A DNA stretch of 33,068 nucleotides. It comes from Dehalococcoidia bacterium. GTDB taxonomy: Bacteria > Chloroflexota > Dehalococcoidia > Dehalococcoidales > UBA1222. The stretch spans positions 1 to 33,068 of the forward strand of contig WRNP01000005.1 of NCBI GenBank assembly GCA_009776515.1, read 5' to 3'. Shown here piece after piece: positions 3,915 through 26,368 of this stretch. Numbering within the stretch: position 1 is the first letter of the stretch; each line of letters opens with the position of its first letter. The translations under genes and the position numbers were made by a program. The notes under the pieces were generated by a model. That model was not told the DNA's origin. It was given only the letters and a program-made list of their open reading frames with translations, and ran no database searches.

Positions 3915-5577
3915 ATATACCCATGCGCTCCTGTTCCGCGGCGACTACGCCTTCCTCCAATTTGGCAAAGAGAATATGGGGTGGCTTGAGGGCTTGGCCG
4001 GCGGCAGGTATCACCAGGCGCCAGCCAGCTTTAGATACGGCTCCATCGAAGCCGAGGTATTCATGCAGGCGCTGAGAGCTGTGCGGCAGGAATGGGTAGA
4101 AGATCGTCTTTAAGGCGGAGATAACGCCGATGGCGGTATAAAGTGAGGTGGCAGCGGATGCGGCGTCATCTTTAATGGCTTTCCAGGGAGCCTTATCATC
4201 TAGATAACGGTTGGCAGCTTGGGCTAAGAACAGGGCTTCTTTGATAGCTTCTTTAAAGCGGCATCCTTCCAAGAAGCGGCCTACCATAATGACGGTGGTT
4301 TCTGCCTTGGCAAGAAGAGCCTCGCTGTCGGAGTCTAATGTTTCTGGCGTGGGCACCGCACCATTAAAACGTGTATAGGTAAAGCTCAATACCCGTTGCA
4401 CTAGGTTGCCATAGGTAGCAACCAGCTCGTCATTGTTACGCCGCACGAATTCCCGCCAGGAAAAGTCAGCATCTGAGCTCTCGGGCATATTAACCGACAG
4501 CAGATAGCGTAACGGATCAGCCTCGTAGCGGGACAAGAAATCATGCACCCAGATGGCCAAATTACGGCTTTTGGAGAACTTTTGTGATTCGATAGTGAGG
4601 AATTCATTGGCCGGGACATCATAGGGCAACCCCAAACTGCCGTAGCCCATGAGTATGGCAGGCCAGACGATGGTATGAAAGGGAATGTTGTCCTTGCCGA
4701 TAAAATAATAAGCCTGCGCCTGGCCATCATGCCAGAAATTCTGCCAGGCATCGGGGGTGCCCTGACTTTTAGCCCATTCGATGGCGGCAGAGAGGTAGCC
4801 AATGACGGCTTCGAACCACACATAGAGGCTTTTGCCAGGATAGCCGGGCAGCGGTAATGGGATGCCCCAGTCGATGTCGCGGGTGATAGCCCGATCTAGC
4901 AGTCCCTCCTCAAGATAGCGCTGGGTGAAGCGCCGCACGTTCACTCGCCAGTGTTCCTTAGTCTTCACCCAGGCGAGCAGGTCATCCTGGAAAGCGGAGA
5001 GTCTGAGGAAGAAGTGCTCCGATTCGCGGTAGATTGGGGTGGCGTGACAGAGCTTGCACTGGGCTTTGATAAGTTCGCTGGGGTTCATGGGCTTGCCGCA
5101 CTGTTCGCATTGATCACCGCGTGCCCCGGGAGACTGACAGATAGGGCAGGTGCCCTCCACATAACGATCGGGCAAGTGGCGCTGACATATTTCGCAGTAT
5201 GGCTGAGTGACCGCCTGTTTATAGACGAGCCCCTTGTCTAAAAGCTCAAGGAAGATATTTTGGGAGACGCGGGTGTGGTTTTCAGTACCGGTGGTCGTGA
5301 AAAGATCCCAGGAAATACCCAGCTTCTGCCAGTCTTCTAAGAAAAGTGCGTGGAAATGCTGAGCGATTTCGGCTGGGGTTTTGCCCTCTTGTTCGGCTCG
5401 GATGGCCACTGGCGTGCCGTGGATGTCGGAGCCAGATATCATCAGTACCTCATTGCCCATAGCGCGGTGGTAACGGGCGAAGATATCGGCGGGCAGATAG
5501 GCCCCAGCCACGTGTCCCAGATGCAGGCGCGAGTTGGCATATGGCCAAGCCACGCATATTAAGATACGCTCAGACAT
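3904..5577 (-). CDS. metG: Methionyl-tRNA synthetase
   Basis: Charges tRNA-Met with methionine in the cytoplasm. The class I Rossmann signature is HLGH at 19-22 in ANSRLHLGHVAGAYL. A four-Cys double knuckle follows at about 129-180 (CEICQ, CPICQ, CEQCG, CKLC), which in this family binds zinc. The KMSKS loop appears as KFSKS near 332-336 in ESQKFSKSRN. At 557 residues it ends after the anticodon-binding helical domain and lacks the C-terminal EMAP-like tRNA-binding domain found in longer MetRS. I see no strong Shine-Dalgarno before the ATG. It lies 56 bases downstream of the small Cys-protein gene and overlaps the polyprenyl synthase gene. Confidence 0.97.
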   Translation of the reverse strand: MSERILICVAWPYANSRLHLGHVAGAYLPADIFARYHRAMGNEVLMISGSDIHGTPVAIRAEQEGKTPAEIAQHFHALFLEDWQKLGISWDLFTTTGTENHTRVSQNIFLELLDKGLVYKQAVTQPYCEICQRHLPDRYVEGTCPICQSPGARGDQCEQCGKPMNPSELIKAQCKLCHATPIYRESEHFFLRLSAFQDDLLAWVKTKEHWRVNVRRFTQRYLEEGLLDRAITRDIDWGIPLPLPGYPGKSLYVWFEAVIGYLSAAIEWAKSQGTPDAWQNFWHDGQAQAYYFIGKDNIPFHTIVWPAILMGYGSLGLPYDVPANEFLTIESQKFSKSRNLAIWVHDFLSRYEADPLRYLLSVNMPESSDADFSWREFVRRNNDELVATYGNLVQRVLSFTYTRFNGAVPTPETLDSDSEALLAKAETTVIMVGRFLEGCRFKEAIKEALFLAQAANRYLDDKAPWKAIKDDAASAATSLYTAIGVISALKTIFYPFLPHSSQRLHEYLGFDGAVSKAGWRLVIPAAGQALKPPHILFAKLEEGVVAAEQERMGIYGS

Positions 5578-13326: not shown

Positions 13327-14316
13327 ATGCAATTTATTTTACTGCTGGGCGGATTGGCTCTTATTATCAAGAGCGCCGACACTTTGATTGAGGCTACGTC
13401 TAGCATTGCCCTGAGATACGGGGTGTCGACATTTGTCGTGGGTATTACGATTATTGCTTTTGGTACCAGCGCTCCTGAATTGGTGGTAGGATTGGTGTCT
13501 GCCATAAGCAAGACCAACGAGCTTTCTTTGGGCAATATCATCGGGGCTTCTTTTGCCAACGCGGCCTTAATCGTTGGTATAGCAGCCATAATCTTCCCCT
13601 TAGCCGTCAAGAACACGGTGATCAAACGTGAACTACCGATGTTGATCTTTGTACAATGTGTTCTGGGTTTTATGATCCTGGGCGATGGCAAAATGACCAG
13701 GGTTGAAGGAATAGTATTGCTCCTGGGGTTTGTGGGGTTTATTGTCTATATTATCAAAACTGCCAAAGGGCACCAGATTATCGCCACCGAAAGTAACGAT
13801 AGCCGCAGTATTGCTGGCGGCGGAAATAATATTGCGGAGAACACGATAGGTGTCAGGGAAGACGGCTCTGTTAAGCTGTGGATCCTCAGCGCCATCGCTT
13901 TAATCGGCCTTTTTGTCGGCGGGAGATTGGCTGTTGATAGCAGTACCAGAATTGCCGAAAGTCTTGGCTTGAGCGAAACCATTATCGGCTTGACGGTGGT
14001 TGCCATCGCTACGACCATGCCTGAGCTTATGACCAGCATCATGGCGGCTAGGAAAAAGGAGCCCGATCTTGTACTCGGTAACTGTATCGGTAGCATTTTG
14101 TTCAATATACTATTGGCATTGGGGCTGTCTGCCGCTATAAATCCCATTGCAGTTCAAGGGAATATGGCATTAGACATATTGCTCATGATACTGCTGACAG
14201 TTGCAATTTTGATCGTGGCTCTTGTTAAAAAACGAATCTCAAGAGTGTGCGGAACCATATTGGTGGCGGGTTACGCTATTTATCTCGGTTTTAAGGTAGT
14301 GGCTGTCTTTCTGTAA
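13327..14316 (+). CDS. Sodium/calcium exchanger family (CaCA) membrane protein
   Basis: Predicted cation antiporter of the Na+/Ca2+ exchanger superfamily, YrbG-like. The 329 residues are mostly hydrophobic, with about ten membrane segments in two inverted halves. Each half carries an alpha-repeat: GTSAPELVVGLVSAI with LGNIIGASFANAALIVG in the first, TTMPELMTSIMAA with LVLGNCIGSILFNILLALG in the second. The acidic PEL residues in both are the known cation ligands. A hydrophilic loop near 145-180 separates the halves. Substrate ion and direction cannot be told from sequence. A purine-rich AAAAGAGAG lies before the ATG. The gene sits alone between the EF-G terminator and the trp promoter. Confidence 0.92.
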   Translation: MQFILLLGGLALIIKSADTLIEATSSIALRYGVSTFVVGITIIAFGTSAPELVVGLVSAISKTNELSLGNIIGASFANAALIVGIAAIIFPLAVKNTVIKRELPMLIFVQCVLGFMILGDGKMTRVEGIVLLLGFVGFIVYIIKTAKGHQIIATESNDSRSIAGGGNNIAENTIGVREDGSVKLWILSAIALIGLFVGGRLAVDSSTRIAESLGLSETIIGLTVVAIATTMPELMTSIMAARKKEPDLVLGNCIGSILFNILLALGLSAAINPIAVQGNMALDILLMILLTVAILIVALVKKRISRVCGTILVAGYAIYLGFKVVAVFL

Positions 14317-14385
14317 ACCATCGCCAATAAAAAAACAGCCGGTCGCCCAATGTTTCCTATGGGCATATTTCGGAAACAACTTTTC

Positions 14386-14414
14386 TTGACAACTGATCTT
14401 GCTTGGTGTACGCT
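14386..14414 (+). promoter_or_regulatory. Promoter of the trp operon leader
   Basis: A perfect -35 TTGACA (14386-14391), a 17-base spacer and TACGCT (14409-14414) as a weak -10. It starts the T-box leader, with the transcript expected near 14421. The stretch 14317-14385 holds nothing I can name. Confidence 0.65.
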
Positions 14415-14437
14415 ACAGCAAATTGAATATTGTCAAA

Positions 14438-14717
14438 CCATTGACGCAGAGGTAAAAACAGCCTAGGCGCTGTACAGAGAGTTCGGCTTAGCTGAGAACC
14501 GAATAGAGATGCCGGCTGTTAAATGGGCTGCCGAGGGCATGGTCAAAGGTGTTAGTGGCACCGAGTATTCCATGACGTGACGCATACGTGAGTTGCGAGG
14601 GATATGTTTGTATCCCGCAGAGAGCACAGAGTTGTTTCTGTGAAACAAGGTGGCACCGCGAATCGTCGGTATTCGTCCTTGGTAGAGCATATAGCTTTAC
14701 CAAGGATTTTTTTATTT
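14438..14717 (+). ncRNA. T-box leader (tRNA-Trp sensing) of the trp operon
   Basis: Binds uncharged tRNA and lets transcription pass the terminator. Stem I: CCAT/ATGG (14438-14441 with 14539-14542) and GCAG/CTGC (14446-14449 with 14528-14531) close the base. CAGCC plus GGC (14459-14468, TA bulged) pair with 14511-14518. AGAGAG (14476-14481) and the TTCGG/CCGAA distal stem follow. The specifier loop between these helices has AAATGGG, giving specifier TGG (Trp) at 14524-14526 followed by a purine. Further hairpins lie at 14595-14618 and 14625-14642. The T-box AAGGTGGCACCGCG is at 14647-14660; its UGGC can pair with the tRNA end GCCA, matching G73 of bacterial tRNA-Trp. AAGG also pairs with CCTT (14677-14680) as antiterminator. 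Pairings were folded by eye. Confidence 0.93.
14676..14717 (+). terminator. T-box regulated terminator before trpE
   Basis: TCCTTGGTAGAGC (14676-14688) pairs with 14694-14706 over 13 pairs (one G-U) with an ATATA loop, then runs into TTTTTTTATTTT. Its 5' arm contains the CCTT that pairs with the T-box AAGG, so terminator and antiterminator exclude each other. Confidence 0.93.
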
Positions 14718-14773
14718 TCGCCAGCCTTAGGCGTTGTGGGTGGGATATAAAGTTTTTCTGAAGGAGTATTCAT

Positions 14774-16234
14774 ATGATCAGGCCTACTTTGGAAGAGGCC
14801 AAGCGCTTATCGCCCGGCCATACCGTAATCCCTGTGGCGTTGGAGATCTTCTCCGACCAGAAGACTCCAATTGAAATCCTGAGGAACATACGCAAACGGA
14901 ATGACGGCTGGTATATCCTAGAGAGTGTGAACGGCGGCGACAGTTGGGGGCGCTATTCATTTTTAGGATATAAACCCGTTATGACCATAAGTGGGACAGG
15001 CGACACCATTGTGTTAAAAGATGGCAAGGGGGAGACGAGGATTACTGCTGGCCCCGTTGGCATGATCAGGGGGTTACTCTCAAGGCAAAAAAGTCCGCGC
15101 ATCGCGTATCTGCCGCCGTTCACGGGCGGGCTCGTGGGTTATTTCGCATATGATTTTGTCAGACATTTCATACCAGGGCTGAGACTCACGGCGATTGATA
15201 GCGAGAATTTTTGGGATTTCCAGCTGATGTTGATGGAAAAGGTGATTGTGTTTGACCATTACAAGCAGAAGATCTTCATTGTTGCCAATATCCCCACGGA
15301 AGACCTTGAGGGTAGCTATGTCAACGGTGTCACGGAACTGCGGGATATAGAAAAGACCATTTTGTCTGCCGTCTTGCCCTCTGATGAGGAGCCTTGCCGC
15401 TGTGGTGAATTTACGCCAGCTTTTTCGAAGAATGAATTCCGCGGAATGATTGAAAAAGTTAAGAGCCATATCGCTGAGGGCGACATTTTTCAGGCGGTCA
15501 TCTCGAACCGTTTCAAAGCCTCGTTCAAAGGTAGTCTCATCAATGCCTACCGCCTACTCCGCACCAGCAATCCCTCGCCATATATGGTCTGTATGGGCCT
15601 CGGCGATTTGGAGATTGCCTGTTCTTCGCCGGAAACCTTAGTTGCCCTGCGGGATGGGGTAGTAAGCTCTTTCCCCCTTGCCGGTACCTGCCCGCGCGGT
15701 AAAAATGAGGATGAAGACGCTCTTTTAATCAAAGCCCTGTTGCAGGACGAAAAAGAATTGGCTGAACATGACATGCTGGTTGATCTTGCTCGGAACGACA
15801 TCGGCAAAGTGAGCCGTTTTGGCAGTGTAAAAACGAATCAGTACCGACAAATAAAGAGTTTTTCCCATGTTAGCCATATCTCTTCGCATATTACAGGAGA
15901 GCTTTGTGAAGGCAAAGATGCTCTTGATGTGATTGCTGCCGCTCTTCCCGCGGGAACCCTTTCTGGCGCACCTAAAAAACGAGCCTGCGAGATCATCGAT
16001 GCGGTTGAGGGCATAAAACGCGGAGTGTATGGCGGTGCAATAGGTTATATCGATTTTGCCGGAAATATGGACATGTGTATCGGCATTCGCTTAGCAGTAC
16101 TCAAGGGGGGTAATGTGTATGTCCAGGCCGGAGCCGGCATTGTGGCGGACAGCGACCCGGAAAAAGAATTCCGTGAAACTCAAAACAAAGCGCGGGCTAC
16201 CATGGAAGCCCTGAAGCACAGCCAGGAGGTGTGA
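14774..16234 (+). CDS. trpE: Anthranilate synthase component I
   Basis: Converts chorismate to anthranilate with ammonia from TrpG, the first step of tryptophan synthesis. The 486 residues carry the feedback pocket at the N-terminus (WYILESVNGGDSWGRYSF) and the chorismate-binding domain: GDIFQAVISNRF, CSSPETLV, SFPLAGTCPRGKNEDED, DLARNDIGKV, GTLSGAPKKRACEIID and GGAIGYIDFAGNMD. The LES motif suggests tryptophan inhibition is kept. AAGGAG lies before the ATG and the T-box leader sits directly upstream. Aminodeoxychorismate synthase (PabB) is the nearest alternative; the operon makes TrpE far more likely. Confidence 0.97.
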   Translation: MIRPTLEEAKRLSPGHTVIPVALEIFSDQKTPIEILRNIRKRNDGWYILESVNGGDSWGRYSFLGYKPVMTISGTGDTIVLKDGKGETRITAGPVGMIRGLLSRQKSPRIAYLPPFTGGLVGYFAYDFVRHFIPGLRLTAIDSENFWDFQLMLMEKVIVFDHYKQKIFIVANIPTEDLEGSYVNGVTELRDIEKTILSAVLPSDEEPCRCGEFTPAFSKNEFRGMIEKVKSHIAEGDIFQAVISNRFKASFKGSLINAYRLLRTSNPSPYMVCMGLGDLEIACSSPETLVALRDGVVSSFPLAGTCPRGKNEDEDALLIKALLQDEKELAEHDMLVDLARNDIGKVSRFGSVKTNQYRQIKSFSHVSHISSHITGELCEGKDALDVIAAALPAGTLSGAPKKRACEIIDAVEGIKRGVYGGAIGYIDFAGNMDMCIGIRLAVLKGGNVYVQAGAGIVADSDPEKEFRETQNKARATMEALKHSQEV

Positions 16235-16237
16235 ATA

Positions 16238-16822
16238 ATGGTTCTGATTATCGATAATTACGACAGCTTTACTTACAATCTCTATCAAATGGCGGGGACA
16301 TTTATACCGGAAACCAAGGTGGTATATAATGATCAATGTGACATAACGAATATTGAGACCTGCGAGCCATCGCATATCATCATCTCTCCCGGCCCTGGCC
16401 GACCGAAGGATGCGGGAATATGCGAGGAGGCTATCCGCTATTTTGCGGGTAAAATACCCATTCTTGGGATCTGCCTCGGACACCAGGCGATTTGCGAGGC
16501 TTTTGGGGGAACTATTGCCTATGCGAAAGTCTTGATGCACGGCAAAAAAAGCACGGTGCACATTGCTAATGGGAGTCCGATCTTTCGTGGTCTGCCGCCC
16601 ATGCTTGAAGCAGGACGTTACCACTCGTTGGCGGCGGAACGAAGCGCCTTGCCTGACGAGCTGCTCGTCATCGCAGAAACGGATGATGGGGAGGTCATGG
16701 GAGTTAAGCATCGGGATTTTGACCTTTATGGCCTACAATTCCATCCCGAATCCATTTTAACACCGAACGGCGGGAGAATTGTGGAGAACTTTCTGAAGAT
16801 AAGGACGGCCGCAGATGATTGA
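16238..16822 (+). CDS. trpG: Anthranilate synthase glutamine amidotransferase component
   Basis: Class I glutaminase that frees ammonia and passes it to TrpE. The 194 residues show NYDSFTYNLYQM at the start, the oxyanion strand ISPGPGRPKDAG, the nucleophile Cys79 in GICLGHQAI, and the His-Glu pair in FHPESIL near the end. HGKKSTV and RYHSL are typical of the TrpG/PabA branch. The start lies three bases after the trpE stop, with AGGAGGTG inside the end of trpE. It could also serve folate synthesis if no separate pabA exists. Confidence 0.97.
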   Translation: MVLIIDNYDSFTYNLYQMAGTFIPETKVVYNDQCDITNIETCEPSHIIISPGPGRPKDAGICEEAIRYFAGKIPILGICLGHQAICEAFGGTIAYAKVLMHGKKSTVHIANGSPIFRGLPPMLEAGRYHSLAAERSALPDELLVIAETDDGEVMGVKHRDFDLYGLQFHPESILTPNGGRIVENFLKIRTAADD

Positions 16823-17831
16823 GCAAGCAATCCACGAAATATTGGATGGGCATCATCTCAGCTCCGATACTGCCAGAGAGGTCATGATGCAGATGATGGA
16901 AGGAGAGGCCCGCGATTCCCAAATGGGAGCTTTTCTGGCGGTGATGCGTTTTAAGGGCGAGAGTATTGAGGAGATTACGGCCTGCGCCGAAGTCATGCGC
17001 GAAAAATGTGTAAAACTACGCCCGAAAACAGACGTACTGGACATTGTGGGTACGGGCGGTGATGAATTATTCAGCTTCAACATCTCCACTATTTCTGCCT
17101 TTGTTGTCGCAGCGGGCGGGGTACCGGTCGCTAAGCACGGTAACCGCAGCGTGTCCAGCAAATGCGGAAGCGCTGATGTGCTTGAGGCATTGGGGGTTAA
17201 GCTGCTACTGACCGCCGCGCAAAGCGAGGCTGTATTGGAGAAAACGGGCATGTGCTTTATGTTGGCGCAGATATACCACTCAGCCATGAAGTATGTTGCT
17301 CATGTGCGAAAAGAACTTGGTGCGCGCACCATATTTAATATACTAGGGCCTTTGGCTAATCCCGCAGGGGCGAATATGCAACTTCTAGGGGTATATGACG
17401 AAAACCTGGTTGAACCCTTGGCCGGGGTGCTGAATAATCTTGGCGTAAAACGCGCCATGGTCGTGCATGGACACGACGGGCTTGACGAAATCACTTTAAC
17501 AGACACGTCAACAATCTGCGAGGTAGCAGACGGAAAGCTTAATAGTTATTTTGTTACGCCCGAACAATTTGGTTTTTCGCGTTGCAGCCCCACCGAACTG
17601 ACCGGAGGCAGTCCTGAGGAAAACGCTGAAATTGCGCGGCGCATCCTCTCGGGGGAAAAAGGGCCTAAACGAGACACGGTGGTGCTCAATGCCGCGTGCT
17701 GCCTTTATATGGGGAAAAACCATGTCACGATGCGCGAATGCGTTAGAGCAGCGCAGAGGATAATCGACAGCGGGCAAGCAATGGACAAACTGGATGATTT
17801 TGTCCGTGTTACGAATGAAGTAGCAGCATGA
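16815..17831 (+). CDS. trpD: Anthranilate phosphoribosyltransferase
   Basis: Joins anthranilate to phosphoribosyl pyrophosphate, giving phosphoribosyl-anthranilate. The 338 residues have the PRPP-binding loop DIVGTGGDELFSFNIST, the family block KHGNRSVSSKCGSADVLE, RTIFNILGPLANPAG, and the motif VHGHDGLDEIT. The small N-terminal helical domain (1-70) is complete. The ATG overlaps the trpG end by eight bases, so translation is probably coupled. Confidence 0.97.
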   Translation: MIEQAIHEILDGHHLSSDTAREVMMQMMEGEARDSQMGAFLAVMRFKGESIEEITACAEVMREKCVKLRPKTDVLDIVGTGGDELFSFNISTISAFVVAAGGVPVAKHGNRSVSSKCGSADVLEALGVKLLLTAAQSEAVLEKTGMCFMLAQIYHSAMKYVAHVRKELGARTIFNILGPLANPAGANMQLLGVYDENLVEPLAGVLNNLGVKRAMVVHGHDGLDEITLTDTSTICEVADGKLNSYFVTPEQFGFSRCSPTELTGGSPEENAEIARRILSGEKGPKRDTVVLNAACCLYMGKNHVTMRECVRAAQRIIDSGQAMDKLDDFVRVTNEVAA

Positions 17832-18592
17832 ATTACCTTGAATGTATTGTTGCTTCAACCAGAGAACGTGTTAGACGGGATAGGCGGGTGGGACTGCCCC
17901 CGCAAAGCCCGAAGCTACGCAATCCTTTTCTCTTCGAGCAAAGCCTGCAAGGACCGGAGATGGCGTTTATCTGCGAAATAAAAAAGGCATCGCCTTCAAA
18001 GGGCATGATTGCAGATGCTTTCCCGTATCTTGATATCGCCCGAGAGTATGAAAACGGTGGGGCTAAGGCCATTTCCGTGCTGACCGAGCCGGAATTCTTC
18101 CAAGGCGATGATCGTCACCTGGCCGAAATTCGCGAAATTGTAAATGCCCCGCTCCTTCGTAAGGACTTTGTTATTGATACGTTTCAGATAGAGCAGGCTG
18201 CTTGCCTTGGGGCTGATGCCGTACTTTTGATCTGTGCGCTTTCTACCCCAGTGCAGATAGCCGGATATATTCAAAAGGCAGACCAATTGGGGTTGTCCTG
18301 CCTGGTTGAAGCGCACGATGAAGGTGAAATCAAGATTGCCCTTGATGCAGGGGCGCGAGTGATCGGCGTCAACAACAGAGACCTTAAGACGTTTAAGGTG
18401 GATCTGAATACCAGCCTGAAACTCCGAGAAATCGTGCCGAGAGACATAATATTTGTGTCCGAAAGTGGTATTCGCACAGCAGAGGACGTTGATACTTTGC
18501 GGCGATATGGAATAAATGCCGTGCTGGTCGGAGAGGCACTTATGCGCTCTCCCGACAAGCAAGCAGCTCTTAATGATCTGCGCGGAAGATAA
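17828..18592 (+). CDS. trpC: Indole-3-glycerol-phosphate synthase
   Basis: Closes the indole ring from carboxyphenylamino-deoxyribulose phosphate. A TIM barrel of 254 residues with the catalytic Lys/Glu elements EIKKASPSKG, LRKDFVIDTFQI, LVEAHDEGEI, GVNNRDLKTFKVD and FVSESGIRT. It starts in an ATGA four-base overlap with trpD. It is not fused to trpF, unlike the enterobacterial enzyme. Confidence 0.97.
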   Translation: MNYLECIVASTRERVRRDRRVGLPPQSPKLRNPFLFEQSLQGPEMAFICEIKKASPSKGMIADAFPYLDIAREYENGGAKAISVLTEPEFFQGDDRHLAEIREIVNAPLLRKDFVIDTFQIEQAACLGADAVLLICALSTPVQIAGYIQKADQLGLSCLVEAHDEGEIKIALDAGARVIGVNNRDLKTFKVDLNTSLKLREIVPRDIIFVSESGIRTAEDVDTLRRYGINAVLVGEALMRSPDKQAALNDLRGR

Positions 18593-18594
18593 AT

Positions 18595-19221
18595 ATGAGC
18601 AAGGTTAAGATTTGTGGTTTGCGCTGCGTTGCGGACGTGGATGCTGTCAATGTGGCGCTGCCAGATTTTGTTGGGTTTGTCTTTGCCGACAGCCACCGCA
18701 GAATTGATGAAGTGACGGCATCGGTCATGAAAGAAAAACTTGATACCAGGATTTTGGCTGTGGGGGTTTTTGTTAATCAGGAGATAGAATATATCGCGAA
18801 TCTGTATCTAAAAGGGGTTATTGATTTAGTGCAACTTCACGGAGAAGAAGATGATGGATATATTCGGCGGCTTCGAGAACGAACAGGCAGTCAAGCCAGC
18901 AAGATCATGCGTATCATCAAGGCCGTTGCCATAGGCAAGGCGTTGCCAGCTTTGCCACATGGGGCGGATTATTTATTGTTTGATACCGCCTCAAAACAGC
19001 GCGGCGGTACCGGGGAAGCTTTTGACTGGGGTATTCTGAAAGATTATCACGGACAACCGTTTTTTATAGCTGGCGGACTTTCAAAATCAACGGTTGTCAA
19101 GGCGATGGCGCTGCTTGCGCCTTTCTGCGTTGACGTAAGTAGTGGGGTGGAGACAGCAGGGGTAAAAGACGCGGAGAAAATTGCTGAGTTTGTGCGCATG
19201 GTAAGGAAGGATAGCTCGTAA
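18595..19221 (+). CDS. trpF: Phosphoribosylanthranilate isomerase
   Basis: Carries out the Amadori rearrangement between the TrpD and TrpC steps. The 208 residues show KICGL (catalytic Cys) at the start, DFVGFVFADSHRRI, VQLHGEED, LLFDTASKQRGGTGE (catalytic Asp and phosphate site), FIAGGLSKSTV and VDVSSGVETAGVKD. It begins two bases after the trpC stop. It is the last trp gene here: no trpB or trpA follows, and the next sequence is an insertion-sequence scar. Confidence 0.97.
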   Translation: MSKVKICGLRCVADVDAVNVALPDFVGFVFADSHRRIDEVTASVMKEKLDTRILAVGVFVNQEIEYIANLYLKGVIDLVQLHGEEDDGYIRRLRERTGSQASKIMRIIKAVAIGKALPALPHGADYLLFDTASKQRGGTGEAFDWGILKDYHGQPFFIAGGLSKSTVVKAMALLAPFCVDVSSGVETAGVKDAEKIAEFVRMVRKDSS

Positions 19222-19457: not shown

Positions 19458-20678
19458 CTATATCATCGCCAGTGGGATGATATAGTTCTTTTCGTTAAGC
19501 TGGAGAACATTGTTGGCCAGGCAAATGATGCCGCCGTCGCCTATATTGACGCCCTTGATGTCGCTAAGCATGCCAAAAGACCTGATATCCCTTTCATCGG
19601 GCTCGGCTTTTATTTTTATCTCCATAGGATAAAGCGTGTTGTTCTCAAAGATCAGCAAATCAATTTCTTTCTTATTGCCATCCCTGAGAAAGTACAGATC
19701 CACTTCTTTCCCGGCATTTGTGTAGCTCTTCAGTATCTCCGAAACAACAAAGCTCTCAAAAAAGCTGCCGTTGTTTGCCCCAATGGACAAATTCTCAGCA
19801 GACATCCAGCGAGTTAGATAAGAGGCTAGACCGATGTCCAGAAAATGCAGTTTCGGTGTTTTGACCACTCTCTTGATTGCGTTATTGCTATAGGGCTTTA
19901 GCAAATATATGATTCCGCTTGTCTTCAAGATGGACAGCCATCTTTTAGCTGTCGGTACGCTTATTCCGATATCGCTTGCCAGCGAAGACAAGTTAAGCAA
20001 TTGTCCTGACATGGCTGCGCAGGCGGTCATGAATGCGTAGAAGCTGACCTCGTCTGCAACTTGTGTGAGCATGCGTACGTCACGTTCTATATAGCTCTTA
20101 ATATAGTCAGCGTAAAAATCTGCCCAATCATAATGCCTGTTCAATACAAGCTCGGGCAAACTGCCCCGATGGATCTTTTCCCAAATCTCAGGTATGCGGA
20201 GAACGGTTTTGTCGGCGTTGCGCGCCTTAAGATACTCAAAGGTCGGCATAAAGGGTTTATTCCAAGCCTCGCCGACCATTTCTCTCATGGATAACCCCAA
20301 TAGCTCCAAAATCCCAGCTCGCCCAGCCAAGCTTTCGGTAACATTTTTCATCAGCTCAAAACTTTGCGAGCCAGTAAGAAAGAATTCCCCCTTATTCCGG
20401 CCGTTGTCTAGATGAATCTTAATATAATGGAATATTTCTGGTGCATATTGCACTTCATCAACGAAAATAGGTGGGGGTGTGATATTGAAAAAAGTTGAAG
20501 GTGAATCAATGGCACGCCTCCTGATTGGCAGGTCATCAAGGGTGATTTTGGGAATATCCGGCTTAAGATTCTCAATCAGTGTGGTCTTCCCCACTTGCCT
20601 TGCCCCCGTGACAACGACCGCGCCTTTCACATCTGCGCGCCTTAATACAGCTTCTTCAATATGCCGCTTAAGATACAT
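19458..20678 (-). CDS. AAA ATPase with DUF4143-type C-terminal domain
   Basis: The 406 residues begin with a P-loop ATPase of the AAA_14 kind: Walker A TGARQVGKTT (24-33), Walker B IFVDEVQ (71-77), sensor-like FLTGSQSFELM and the conserved ESLAGRAGILEL. A winged-helix-like middle (LASDIGISVPTAKRWLS) and the DUF4143 region follow. Near 345-362 KEIDLLIFE and PMEIKIKAEP give the spacing of a PD-(D/E)xK nuclease core. Members of this abundant family occur in many scattered copies in genomes; their role is unsettled, with links to mobile DNA and defence proposed. It lies in the accessory segment, next to an IS remnant. GGGCAGG is a weak ribosome site before the ATG. Confidence 0.9.
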   Translation of the reverse strand: MYLKRHIEEAVLRRADVKGAVVVTGARQVGKTTLIENLKPDIPKITLDDLPIRRRAIDSPSTFFNITPPPIFVDEVQYAPEIFHYIKIHLDNGRNKGEFFLTGSQSFELMKNVTESLAGRAGILELLGLSMREMVGEAWNKPFMPTFEYLKARNADKTVLRIPEIWEKIHRGSLPELVLNRHYDWADFYADYIKSYIERDVRMLTQVADEVSFYAFMTACAAMSGQLLNLSSLASDIGISVPTAKRWLSILKTSGIIYLLKPYSNNAIKRVVKTPKLHFLDIGLASYLTRWMSAENLSIGANNGSFFESFVVSEILKSYTNAGKEVDLYFLRDGNKKEIDLLIFENNTLYPMEIKIKAEPDERDIRSFGMLSDIKGVNIGDGGIICLANNVLQLNEKNYIIPLAMI

Positions 20679-22261: not shown

Positions 22262-22298
22262 AAGGGGGTAGTAACGAATATTACAATATAACCCCTTT
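22262..22298 (+). repeat. Hairpin in the leader of the RCC1 surface-protein gene
   Basis: AAGGGGGT (22262-22269) pairs with ACCCCTTT (22291-22298, one G-U pair), ending just before the GAGGAG ribosome site. It might affect translation start; no promoter I trust was found in 22132-22318. Confidence 0.4.
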
Positions 22299-22318
22299 TG
22301 TGTGAGGAGACTGAGCAA

Positions 22319-25300
22319 ATGGGCATCATAAAAAATAAACCCAACCTAAAACAGCTCTTGTTGGTACTGCTGATCGCCATATTGGTCGTAGCAATAGTGC
22401 TGGCTGGCACACCGCTACTCACCCAACCTAAAGTAAGCGCTGCCCCGGGTGATACCTATGCGGTACCTATGGTCTCAGCCGGAGGCAGTCATACGGTTGC
22501 CCTGCATAATGACGGCACCGTCTGGGCTTGGGGTTCTAACGAATACGGACAGTTGGGTAACAACTCCACCGCAGGCAGCCTGACCCCCGCACGGGTAGTT
22601 GGCCCGGGAGGGGTTGGTTTTCTCGCCGATATTATTGCCGTCTCAGCTGGAGATGCTCACACTGTGGCTCTCAAAGATGATGGCACCGTCTGGGCCTGGG
22701 GGGCTAATAATCACGGCCAATTGGGTAATAACTCCACCGCCGACAGTCTGACACCAGTGCAGGTAGTAGACCCCGACGACATCACCGGTTTTCTTGCCGA
22801 CATTGCTGCCATATCTGCCGGAGGCCTGTACACCGTAGCCCTTAAAGCTGATGGTACGGTATGGACCTGGGGAGCTAACAGCGATGGCCAATTGGGTAAC
22901 GACTCCTCTGCGGATAGCTGGATACCTGATCAGGTACGAGAGCCATGGGGAGGCGTCAATTACCTTACCGAAATCATCGCCATCTCGGCCGGATACGCTC
23001 ACACAATAGTCCTCAAAGAAGACGGTACTGTATGGGCCTGGGGACAGAATTATTATGGTCAGTTGGGTGATGGAACTACTACCAGCAGCAGTACTCCGGT
23101 ACAGGTAATCAACCCCATGGATGTCACCGGTTTCCTCACCGACATCGTTGCCGTATCGGCTGGATATTATCACACGGTAGCCCTAAAAGCTGACGGCACC
23201 GTATGGGCTTGGGGATATAATTTCTACGGTCAACTGGGCGATAGTACTGATGCTCATCGCTATTCACCAATACAGGTACCCGGTCTGCTCGAAGTGGCGG
23301 CCATCTCGGCCGGATATGCTCACACCGTAGCCCTTAAAGCTGATGGTACGGTATGGGCCTGGGGATTGAATAGCGCTGGCCAACTGGGTAACGATTCCTC
23401 TACTGATAGTTGGATACCTGATCAGGTACGAGAGCCTTGGGGAGGCGTCAATTACCTTACCGATATTATCGCCATCTCGGCCGGAGGTTATCATGCAATT
23501 GCCTTGAAGAGTGATGGTGCCGGCGAAGGCACCCTTTGGTCATGGGGAGATAATGATTTTGGTCAGCTTGGCGACGGTACTGCCGTAAACCGCCTTGCAC
23601 CTGTACAGGTTGTTTATTATAACTTTATCGCTGTCTCCGCCGGATATTCTCATACAATGGCCCTGAAATATGATGGCACGGTATGGGCTTGGGGATGGAA
23701 CAATTTAGGACAATTGGGCAATGGTTCTACTGCAAACAGTTTCAAGCCTGTACAGGTGCGCGGTCTGGGAGGCGCTGGTTTTCTGACTGATATAGTCACT
23801 GTCGCGGCTGGAAACTATTACACGGTGGCTCTGAAAGAAGACGGCACGGTATGGGCCTGGGGATATAACAGCCAAGGCCAACTGGGCGACGGCACTAATG
23901 GCGCAGGCGCAAACCGTAGCGTGCCAGTACGGGTTATCGACCCAACCGATGACACCGGTTTTTTGACCGGTATCATGGCTGTTGCGGCTGGTGTTAATAA
24001 CACAGTAGCCCTAAAGGAAGCTGGCACGGTATGGACATGGGGAGGAGGCCTGTTGGGAAATGGCACCACTGCGAGCAGTAGCGTGCCAGTACGGGTTATC
24101 GACCCAACCGATGACACCGGTTTTCTGACCGGTATCACTGCTGTTGCGACTGGGCAGGATCACACAGTAGCCCTAAAAGAAGATGGCACGGTATGGACAT
24201 GGGGATACAACTTCTATGGGCAGATTGGCGATGGCACTAATGGTGTAGGCACAAACCGCAACGTGCCCGTACAGGTTATCGACCCAACCGATGGCACCGG
24301 TTTTCTGACTGATATAGTCGCCGTCGCGGCTGGAAGCTATTACACGGTGGCTCTAAAAGAAGATGGCACGGTGTGTGCTTGGGGTTATAACAACTACGAC
24401 CAGTTGGGCGATGGTAACGGCGGCCTTGGCGTATATAGTAGCGTGCCAGTACAAGTTATCGATCCAACCGATGTCACCGGTTTTCTGAGCGGCATCATTG
24501 CTGTTGCGGCTGGACAGGATCACACAGTAGCCCTAAAAGAAGATGGCACAGTATGGGCTTGGGGACTGAACATTAACGGCCAACTGGGTGATGACACTGA
24601 GACAAATCGACTTGCGCCAGTTCAGGTACGCGGACCGGGCGGCGGTGGCTTTTTGACTGACATAGTGGCTATTGCGGCTGGAGTTAATCACACAATGGCC
24701 CTGAAGATTGATGGCACGGTATGGGGTTGGGGGCATAACCAATTTGGGCAGGCGACGGGTGATACAGGATATACCCACGTCCTTACGCCCACGCGGGTTT
24801 TCTCCCCTGCTCCCTTCACAGTATTGTTGGACATCACTCCTCCCATCGGTATCATCAGCTTCGTACTTAACGATTATGGCTCTTTCATCACCGCAAACAC
24901 TTTTGGGGTATTTCGCAAGAACACCACTTTTATCACCATAACAGCCCAAGACGATCTCTCTGGTATCAAATCCATTGCCTATCTTCTATCCGATAATGTC
25001 TACCTAGATGCAGCGGCTATGAGTAGCGTCATCTGGACATCTTATCCCAAAGACGGGTTCAGCATATCGGCCAACTACAGGGGTTTCGCCTATGCCCGCA
25101 TTGCCGACAAGGCAGATAACATAACCATTATCCGCTCTGATGGTTTGGTGGTATACACAGATAGCACTCCTGCTATCACATCGCTCAGTTATGTCTATGC
25201 TTCTGCTTCTGATCAAGATCTCGCGGTGACAATGAGCGGCAATACTATAGACAAAATCATGAACGGCGCCGTCACCCTCGTATTTGGCGTCGACTACACG

Positions 25301-26368
25301 GTAATGGGCGATGTCATTACCTTCAAAGCCGCTTATCTTGACAGTTTAAGCATTGACGATTACACCATTACCGTCTATTACAACCCCATGGGTGTAACTT
25401 ATGTAGATGCCCCAGGCAACGAAGCTCCCGATACCACCACCGTTAACCTGATGATATACCAGCCGTACGATGTTATCTATACCTATAGCGGCACTATTCC
25501 CCTGGGTGCCCCGGCTGTGCCGTCGCTAGAGAGCTTTGCTCCCAACACAATGGTTAGCGTAGCACCACCACCGACCCTATCTGGTTATACTTTCAGCGGG
25601 TGGAGTACTGCCTCAGCGGGGGTCAGTATCAGTGGTGGTAGTTTCTCCATGCCAACAAGTGATGTGGTTTTCACTGGCACGTGGATGCCAAACACTCCAA
25701 TCACCACGGCCACATCGACGACATCGACGCCCATCACTCCTCCCAATACCGTCATTCCCACCACTCCCGTTTCTTCTATTCCCACCACGGTGATCGTGAG
25801 TCCCACCCCTTCCGGTACTACTACCACACCGACTCCGTCAACCACGCCTACCACTGCCCCAACGAGTTCAACCACCTCGGCTATCTCAGCCACCCCACTG
25901 ATACAAGATCCCACTGAGACCGGCACTCTCCCAACAACGACCGCTATGGGTGGTAGCACCTCACCCACCACCACGACCGTAGCTCCCTCTACCACCCCGA
26001 ATACGAAGACCGGTGATGGCAACGATTACTGGGCCCTCCTTAACCTTATCCTGGCCATCTTGGGGGCTCTCCTGGCCGTAGGGGCTATTATCCGAGCTTT
26101 CTTCTGGCACGGTAAAAACGAAGACCGCTACGGTATAGAAGAAAAGAAGACCCGACTCATCTGGATCGCCATATCTGTCGTCCTGGCCATAATAGGTTTT
26201 GTGGTCTTCTTCTTAACCGAAGATATGAGTCTCCCAATGCGCTTCGTGGACATCTGGACCATCGTCAATGCCGTCATCCTCATAATCGGTATCATCAGTG
26301 TGATGCTGGTCTTCAAGCATGAGGAAAATGACGCAATGAAACCAGCCACTAACGGAAGAGGGGAATAA
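22319..26368 (+). CDS. Large exported RCC1-repeat surface protein with X2-like, InlB-type, stalk and membrane-anchor regions
   Basis: 1349 residues from the ATG at 22319 (GAGGAG at 22304-22309; an in-frame TTG at 22298 precedes that site). Signal peptide at about 1-38, ending near KVSAAPG. Fourteen RCC1 repeats, each with a form of HTVALKxDGTVWAWG and GQLG, fill about 50-837, enough for two seven-bladed propellers. An Ig-like stretch follows (838-949), then a CBM_X2-like module (about 951-1047, GVDYTVMGDVITFKAAYLD), an InlB/Listeria-Bacteroides-type repeat (about 1050-1124, GYTFSGWS...MPTSDVVFTGTW), a Thr/Pro stalk (about 1123-1235), and a three-helix C-terminal domain (1236-1341) shared with the protein at 1-480. 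I infer a cell-surface binding protein; the ligand is unknown. It has no enzymatic motif. It is monocistronic by spacing. Confidence 0.92.
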   Translation: MGIIKNKPNLKQLLLVLLIAILVVAIVLAGTPLLTQPKVSAAPGDTYAVPMVSAGGSHTVALHNDGTVWAWGSNEYGQLGNNSTAGSLTPARVVGPGGVGFLADIIAVSAGDAHTVALKDDGTVWAWGANNHGQLGNNSTADSLTPVQVVDPDDITGFLADIAAISAGGLYTVALKADGTVWTWGANSDGQLGNDSSADSWIPDQVREPWGGVNYLTEIIAISAGYAHTIVLKEDGTVWAWGQNYYGQLGDGTTTSSSTPVQVINPMDVTGFLTDIVAVSAGYYHTVALKADGTVWAWGYNFYGQLGDSTDAHRYSPIQVPGLLEVAAISAGYAHTVALKADGTVWAWGLNSAGQLGNDSSTDSWIPDQVREPWGGVNYLTDIIAISAGGYHAIALKSDGAGEGTLWSWGDNDFGQLGDGTAVNRLAPVQVVYYNFIAVSAGYSHTMALKYDGTVWAWGWNNLGQLGNGSTANSFKPVQVRGLGGAGFLTDIVTVAAGNYYTVALKEDGTVWAWGYNSQGQLGDGTNGAGANRSVPVRVIDPTDDTGFLTGIMAVAAGVNNTVALKEAGTVWTWGGGLLGNGTTASSSVPVRVIDPTDDTGFLTGITAVATGQDHTVALKEDGTVWTWGYNFYGQIGDGTNGVGTNRNVPVQVIDPTDGTGFLTDIVAVAAGSYYTVALKEDGTVCAWGYNNYDQLGDGNGGLGVYSSVPVQVIDPTDVTGFLSGIIAVAAGQDHTVALKEDGTVWAWGLNINGQLGDDTETNRLAPVQVRGPGGGGFLTDIVAIAAGVNHTMALKIDGTVWGWGHNQFGQATGDTGYTHVLTPTRVFSPAPFTVLLDITPPIGIISFVLNDYGSFITANTFGVFRKNTTFITITAQDDLSGIKSIAYLLSDNVYLDAAAMSSVIWTSYPKDGFSISANYRGFAYARIADKADNITIIRSDGLVVYTDSTPAITSLSYVYASASDQDLAVTMSGNTIDKIMNGAVTLVFGVDYTVMGDVITFKAAYLDSLSIDDYTITVYYNPMGVTYVDAPGNEAPDTTTVNLMIYQPYDVIYTYSGTIPLGAPAVPSLESFAPNTMVSVAPPPTLSGYTFSGWSTASAGVSISGGSFSMPTSDVVFTGTWMPNTPITTATSTTSTPITPPNTVIPTTPVSSIPTTVIVSPTPSGTTTTPTPSTTPTTAPTSSTTSAISATPLIQDPTETGTLPTTTAMGGSTSPTTTTVAPSTTPNTKTGDGNDYWALLNLILAILGALLAVGAIIRAFFWHGKNEDRYGIEEKKTRLIWIAISVVLAIIGFVVFFLTEDMSLPMRFVDIWTIVNAVILIIGIISVMLVFKHEENDAMKPATNGRGE
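22475..24830 (+). repeat. Array of 14 RCC1 coding repeats
   Basis: Fourteen units of about 50-60 codons. Units 3 and 6 share an almost identical segment (22921-22970 and 23413-23462, exactly 492 bases apart). Units 9-12 share a near-identical linker beginning GTGCCAGTACGGGTTATCGA at 23921, with counterparts near 24082, 24261 and 24441. This shows duplication or gene conversion inside the array. Unit 10 is shortened (WGGGLLGNGT) and unit 12 has Cys for the usual Trp. Confidence 0.9.
26030..26323 (+). repeat. Dispersed coding repeat, copy 2: three-helix surface-anchor domain
   Basis: Ungapped counterpart of 157-450. The encoded segments are identical at 82 of 99 positions. The charged loop and the LTEDMSLPMRFVDIWT segment are the best kept parts. 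Confidence 0.85.

Follow-up and report, generated by a model that had tools for sequence, protein, structure and literature searches.

A predicted Trp T-box riboswitch and its trpEGDCF operon, probably acquired together by a Chloroflexota lineage

Identification of the T-box leader and the operon

The window analyzed in this work, i.e., the whole 33,068-nt stretch of contig WRNP01000005.1 (draft assembly GCA_009776515.1, Dehalococcoidia), contains genes of tryptophan biosynthesis preceded by a long leader, which raises the questions of what signal this leader reads and how leader and genes came to reside in this genome. We are highly confident of one explanation for the locus as a whole, namely a transcriptional tryptophan (Trp) T-box riboswitch acting on trpEGDCF, with leader and operon probably transferred together.

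The Rfam T-box model (RF00230) matched positions 14432–14683 of the forward strand along its full length (model positions 1–219 of 219), with a score of 79.6 bits and an E-value of 1e-17, the latter referring to a scan over 501 bases (14300–14800). The T-box call of the initial annotation, made from the sequence alone, was therefore confirmed. No second RF00230 match, which would indicate a tandem T-box upstream of 14432, was found in 14300–14800. Within the whole draft genome, only three T-boxes were detected: the one in the window, one directly upstream of trpB-trpA (C46:8224–8470), and one directly upstream of ileS (C48:6293–6549), the last gene being identified from its own sequence and the tRNA-synthetase homology of the relatives' genes.

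Downstream of the leader, five genes were recognized with Pfam and NCBIfam:

14774..16234, +, trpE, anthranilate synthase component I
16238..16822, +, trpG, anthranilate synthase component II
16815..17831, +, trpD, anthranilate phosphoribosyltransferase (TIGR01245 over its cut-off)
17828..18592, +, trpC, indole-3-glycerol phosphate synthase
18595..19221, +, trpF, phosphoribosylanthranilate isomerase, the last gene of the operon

Consecutive genes overlap or are separated by gaps of at most 3 nt, and the next family-matched gene beyond trpF lies on the opposite strand; no terminator was found 3′ of trpF. The operon is followed by a DUF4143/AAA_14 ATPase gene (19458–20678, minus strand) and a 1356-aa ORF (22298–26368, plus strand).

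The leader had been proposed to control a whole trp operon. It does lead trpEGDCF, but trpB and trpA are located on another contig of the same genome (G000:C46; L147:6215–8470, minus strand), where they follow a T-box of their own with a UGG specifier and a UGGC bulge. The tryptophan pathway is thus split into two operons sharing one predicted signal. A trpB-like gene (TIGR01415) was not found in this genome at the cut-off.

Host and origin of the leader and the operon

The 16S rRNA motif AGCGGAGCGTGTGGTTTAATTCG, to which the Chloroflexota probe GNSB-941 is directed, was present in 19 of the 61 genomes searched, including that of the window, and in none of 12 genomes, for the most part Bacillota, from which trpE loci had been taken. 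The 16S rRNA of the window's genome presumably resembles that of Dehalococcoides, and the host is a member of Chloroflexota, probably of the class Dehalococcoidia. Bacillota and Elusimicrobiota, also considered as hosts, were dropped after the 16S motif test.

Across the host's order, the native set of T-boxes comprises those of ileS, trpE, and a trpB-like gene, the three published for Dehalococcoides (PMC2494555), which adds to the evidence that makes this placement probable. The TrpE protein of the window is ~40% identical to the TrpE proteins of its own order (most members of the host's family lack TrpE) and up to 74% identical to those of termite-gut metagenome-assembled genomes (MAGs), the 74% applying to a Bacillota bin. 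In the TrpE tree, the 29 proteins of the host's order formed a single clade (support 100) from which the window's protein was excluded, being placed among those of gut Bacillota. In the T-box tree, the window leader grouped with the leaders of L010 and L014–L016 (100/98), and the trpBA T-box of the same genome joined the trpB T-boxes of its family (99/97), as did TrpB. Since both TrpE and the T-box group with gut Bacillota and not with the host's own order, the leader and trpEGDCF probably entered the Chloroflexota lineage together, from gut Bacillota, by horizontal transfer; trpBA probably arrived by a separate route. Several bins at the nearest loci carry names of other phyla and may be mis-binned, which makes the assignment of the donor tentative.

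Could the same T-box instead head an operon inherited vertically within the host's order, or could the contig be a binning error? T-boxes on trpE are native in that order too, and draft bins can be mixed. We nevertheless consider this improbable. Vertical descent is opposed by the difference in TrpE identity and by the separation in the tree, and mis-binning by the genes on the window's contig: its methionyl-tRNA synthetase (MetRS) is 68–72% identical to that of the host's family, and the right-hand flank gene also has its best match there among the relatives searched, so that the contig looks native.

Joint transfer of leader and trpEGDCF may be part of a broader picture, to which we give an even chance. 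The trp regulon would have been put together from a trpEGDCF and a trpBA cassette, imported independently and each bringing a Trp T-box along, and no native trpB-like gene was found; common sensing of tRNA-Trp would have coordinated both foreign operons from the start without a regulator protein; and the same T-box subfamily would accompany trp operons in gut phyla absent from the T-box list of a 2008 survey (Elusimicrobiota, Synergistota, and Deferribacterota).

Specifier, bulge, and tRNA-Trp

The amino acid specificity of the leader was examined at its two tRNA contact sites:

14524..14526, +, specifier UGG (Trp codon), from the RF00230 columns; the triplet after (U)AA-A, invariant in 52/52 trp leaders
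14651..14654, +, bulge UGGC, able to pair with GCCA at the end of tRNA-Trp, read from the sequence; UGG invariant in all 52 leaders, fourth base C in 40 and T in 12

The specifier columns of RF00230 hold UGG in the window, UGG before trpBA, and AUC, an isoleucine codon, before ileS. As AUC occupies the identical model columns, the ileS leader serves as an internal control within one genome and shows that the specifier register is right. In the MAFFT alignment, the ileS leaders were one column off relative to the trp leaders at the specifier, and the register was therefore taken from the covariance model. The initial annotation had placed the specifier at 14524–14526, and the covariance-model check, set beforehand as a possible refutation, put it on this very UGG.

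A single tRNA-Trp gene was found in the genome, an incomplete draft (91.5% complete), so that another gene for tRNA-Trp or for the trp pathway may have escaped detection. It has the anticodon CCA and the end ...CCACTCCTGCCA (TGCCA), with G73 as the discriminator base, and its GCCA pairs with UGGC at 4/4 positions; the proposed complementarity of the bulge to a G73-bearing tRNA-Trp thus agrees with the only such gene found, which ends in G-CCA. Both variants of the fourth bulge base, C and U, pair with G73, and TBDB describes U as frequent there among Trp T-boxes (PMC7778990).

Alternative specifier frames of T-boxes are on record (PMC7778990), and the triplets AUG (14523–14525, Met) and GGG (14525–14527, Gly) adjoin UGG. 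A reading of the window leader in either of these registers is nonetheless highly improbable, as the RF00230 columns give UGG, the base after the invariant UGG is A, G, or C among the 52 leaders, and the downstream genes serve tryptophan synthesis. Moreover, in this genome tRNA-Met carries A73 and tRNA-Gly U73, neither of which is complementary to the last base of the UGGC bulge; G73 of tRNA-Trp is.

Structure and covariation of the leader

The UGG-reading leader comprises the following elements:

14438..14537, +, T-box Stem I, from the RF00230 alignment; covariation among the 52 trp leaders in its lower, upper, and apical helices
14538..14574, +, Stem II, containing the internal motif AAAG / AGUA; lower helix covaries
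14575..14597, +, Stem IIA/B pseudoknot, ACGU/ACGU and CGCA/UGCG; 98–99.5% paired on the alignment
14599..14616, +, Stem III; 99.4% paired, compensatory change in 6/6 pairs
14625..14642, +, hairpin preceding the antiterminator, present in RF00230; 90.6% paired, compensatory change in 6/6 pairs
14646..14681, +, antiterminator, formed by the T-box sequence AAGGUGGCACCGCG and the strand pairing with it, from the RF00230 alignment; counted as helices 11 and 12 in the covariation test

A T-box motif was found upstream of trpE in most of 80 related loci, and the covariance model confirmed it in 10/10 loci tested. Within the 52 aligned trp leaders, the 60-pair named structure, including the IIA/B pseudoknot, held in 93.4% of pair cells, compared with 36–44% for slid partners, a control somewhat biased in favor of the structure because the latter was drawn on one of the 52 sequences. 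Compensatory changes, which are less affected by this bias, were present in 46 of the 60 pairs, against 30.5 in shuffles (0/500 shuffles as high). Sequence and alignment together thus show how the leader is built, which pairings it can form, and that it is conserved. Stem II, the IIA/B pseudoknot, and Stem III were all backed by covariation; for instance, relatives have CGCAG/CUGCG instead of CAUGG/CCAUG in the lower helix of Stem II, where 98.8% of cells are paired, and the first pair of the pseudoknot is CG in 26 sequences and GC in 23. The S-turn of Stem I (motif AGUA / GAA) has the deviating form GGUA / UAA in the window, a point against the T-box reading, and AUAA or AGUA with CAA or UAA in relatives.

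The default Rfam scan reported no T-box in the window, because RF00230 has a curated gathering score of 93 bits, an annotation cut-off and not a biological feature, and the 79.6 bits of the window leader fall below it. Trp leaders of the window's subfamily scored 63–88 bits in 12/12 cases tested (L002, L007, L010, L012, L014, L017, L024, L031, L033, L035, L040, and the window), which indicates that the low score is a property of the subfamily and that all of its tested trp T-boxes, being under 93 bits, are missed by standard annotation. An annotation gap is thereby exposed, with these leaders unseen by default scans. A decayed or non-functional T-box, leaving only a constitutive terminator or leader, could be suspected from the sub-threshold score, from the longish branch of the window in the T-box tree (0.26), and from the probable acquisition of the element by transfer, yet it is most unlikely, given that 64/64 checked pairs are intact in the window sequence, that specifier, bulge, and terminator are intact as well, and that the low score is shared by the subfamily.

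Terminator switch and proposed mechanism

The expression signals surrounding the intact T-box are as follows:

14386..14414, +, putative promoter, TTGACA (14386–14391), 17 nt, TACGCT (14409–14414), read from the sequence
14675..14713, +, intrinsic terminator, a hairpin of 14 pairs (14675–14707) with 7 T (14707–14713), from terminator scan and folding
14760..14766, +, Shine-Dalgarno sequence GAAGGAG, seen by inspection and separated by 7 nt from the start codon ATG (14774)

The TTGACA of the window aligns with that of better promoters (TTGACA...TATACT) in the related leaders of L014–L016; the −10 element of the window is weak, and the putative promoter was absent from the list produced by a sigma-70 consensus scan.

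The terminator with its T-run, folded alone, had an energy of −21.8 kcal/mol, compared with a shuffle mean of −4.5 (sd 2.0), and 0/1000 shuffles reached so low a value. As the strand 14675–14681 is common to the antiterminator and the terminator, the two structures are mutually exclusive. In terms of computed energies only, the segment 14674–14720 reached −22.3 kcal/mol and the antiterminator region −12.4 kcal/mol, so that the terminator is ~10 kcal/mol more stable; the antiterminator drawn by Vienna alone is not quite of the family consensus form. The competing terminator proposed from the sequence is therefore borne out by its 14 pairs and U-run, by the shared 3′ strand of the antiterminator, and by its lower computed energy.

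By analogy with the known family, tRNA binding and read-through may be envisaged as follows. As RNA polymerase transcribes the leader, Stem I would read the anticodon of tRNA-Trp through UGG, a contact that Stem II and the IIA/B pseudoknot would support. The GCCA end of uncharged tRNA-Trp would then pair with the UGGC bulge and hold the antiterminator, allowing trpEGDCF to be transcribed, whereas with charged tRNA-Trp the more stable terminator would form and transcription would stop at the U-run. Read-through into trpEGDCF upon tryptophan starvation is thus predicted. The trpBA T-box would answer the same tRNA, and trpEGDCF and trpBA would accordingly be induced jointly.

Comparison with known systems

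The leader shares with the Trp T-boxes of Bacillota trp operons (e.g., the Lactococcus lactis trp operon and the Trp class of TBDB) the UGG specifier, the UGGC/UGGU bulge facing G73, the Stem I-II-IIA/B-III architecture, the intrinsic terminator, and the trp genes downstream (PMC2494555, PMC7778990, PMC12452182). It differs from them in its Chloroflexota host, in the position of trpBA outside the operon and behind a second Trp T-box, and in the change of GAA to UAA in the specifier loop.

A Trp T-box on trpE is an established kind of riboswitch and target, and it is on record for Chloroflexota too, namely in Dehalococcoides, which has three T-boxes, on ileS, trpE, and a trpB-like gene (PMC2494555). 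Dehalococcoides probably belongs to the same bacterial class as the host of the window, and its T-boxes have the same three kinds of targets (PMC2494555). The TrpE and the T-box of the window, however, differ from the type native to the order, and its genome has canonical trpBA in place of the trpB-like gene.

The main interest of the locus consequently lies in the likely joint transfer of sensor and genes. Because a Trp T-box leader needs only the tRNA-Trp of its host, a biosynthetic operon can carry its own regulation between phyla. In addition, the window provides a clean Trp T-box with internal controls (trpBA and ileS) in one genome.

T-boxes at other loci

T-boxes upstream of trpE, scoring 77–88 bits, were also observed on trp operons at five loci (L024, L031, L033, L035, and L040) of MAGs that carry the names Synergistaceae, Endomicrobium/Endomicrobiellum (Elusimicrobiota), and Deferribacteraceae. 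These MAGs may be mis-binned, although the Endomicrobium TrpE proteins form one clade. A limited literature search found no work linking Endomicrobium with T-boxes.

In relatives of the host (L156, L165, L168, L175, and L178–L190), a trpB-like gene and ileS, each led by a T-box, form a convergent pair, an arrangement conserved in many families of the host's order.

At the closest trpE relative, L007, trpE is placed behind a gene reading like a DAHP synthase gene (aroF). The T-box of this locus (4797–5048) is located upstream of the aroF-like gene, and entry into the shikimate pathway would therefore be under this switch as well.
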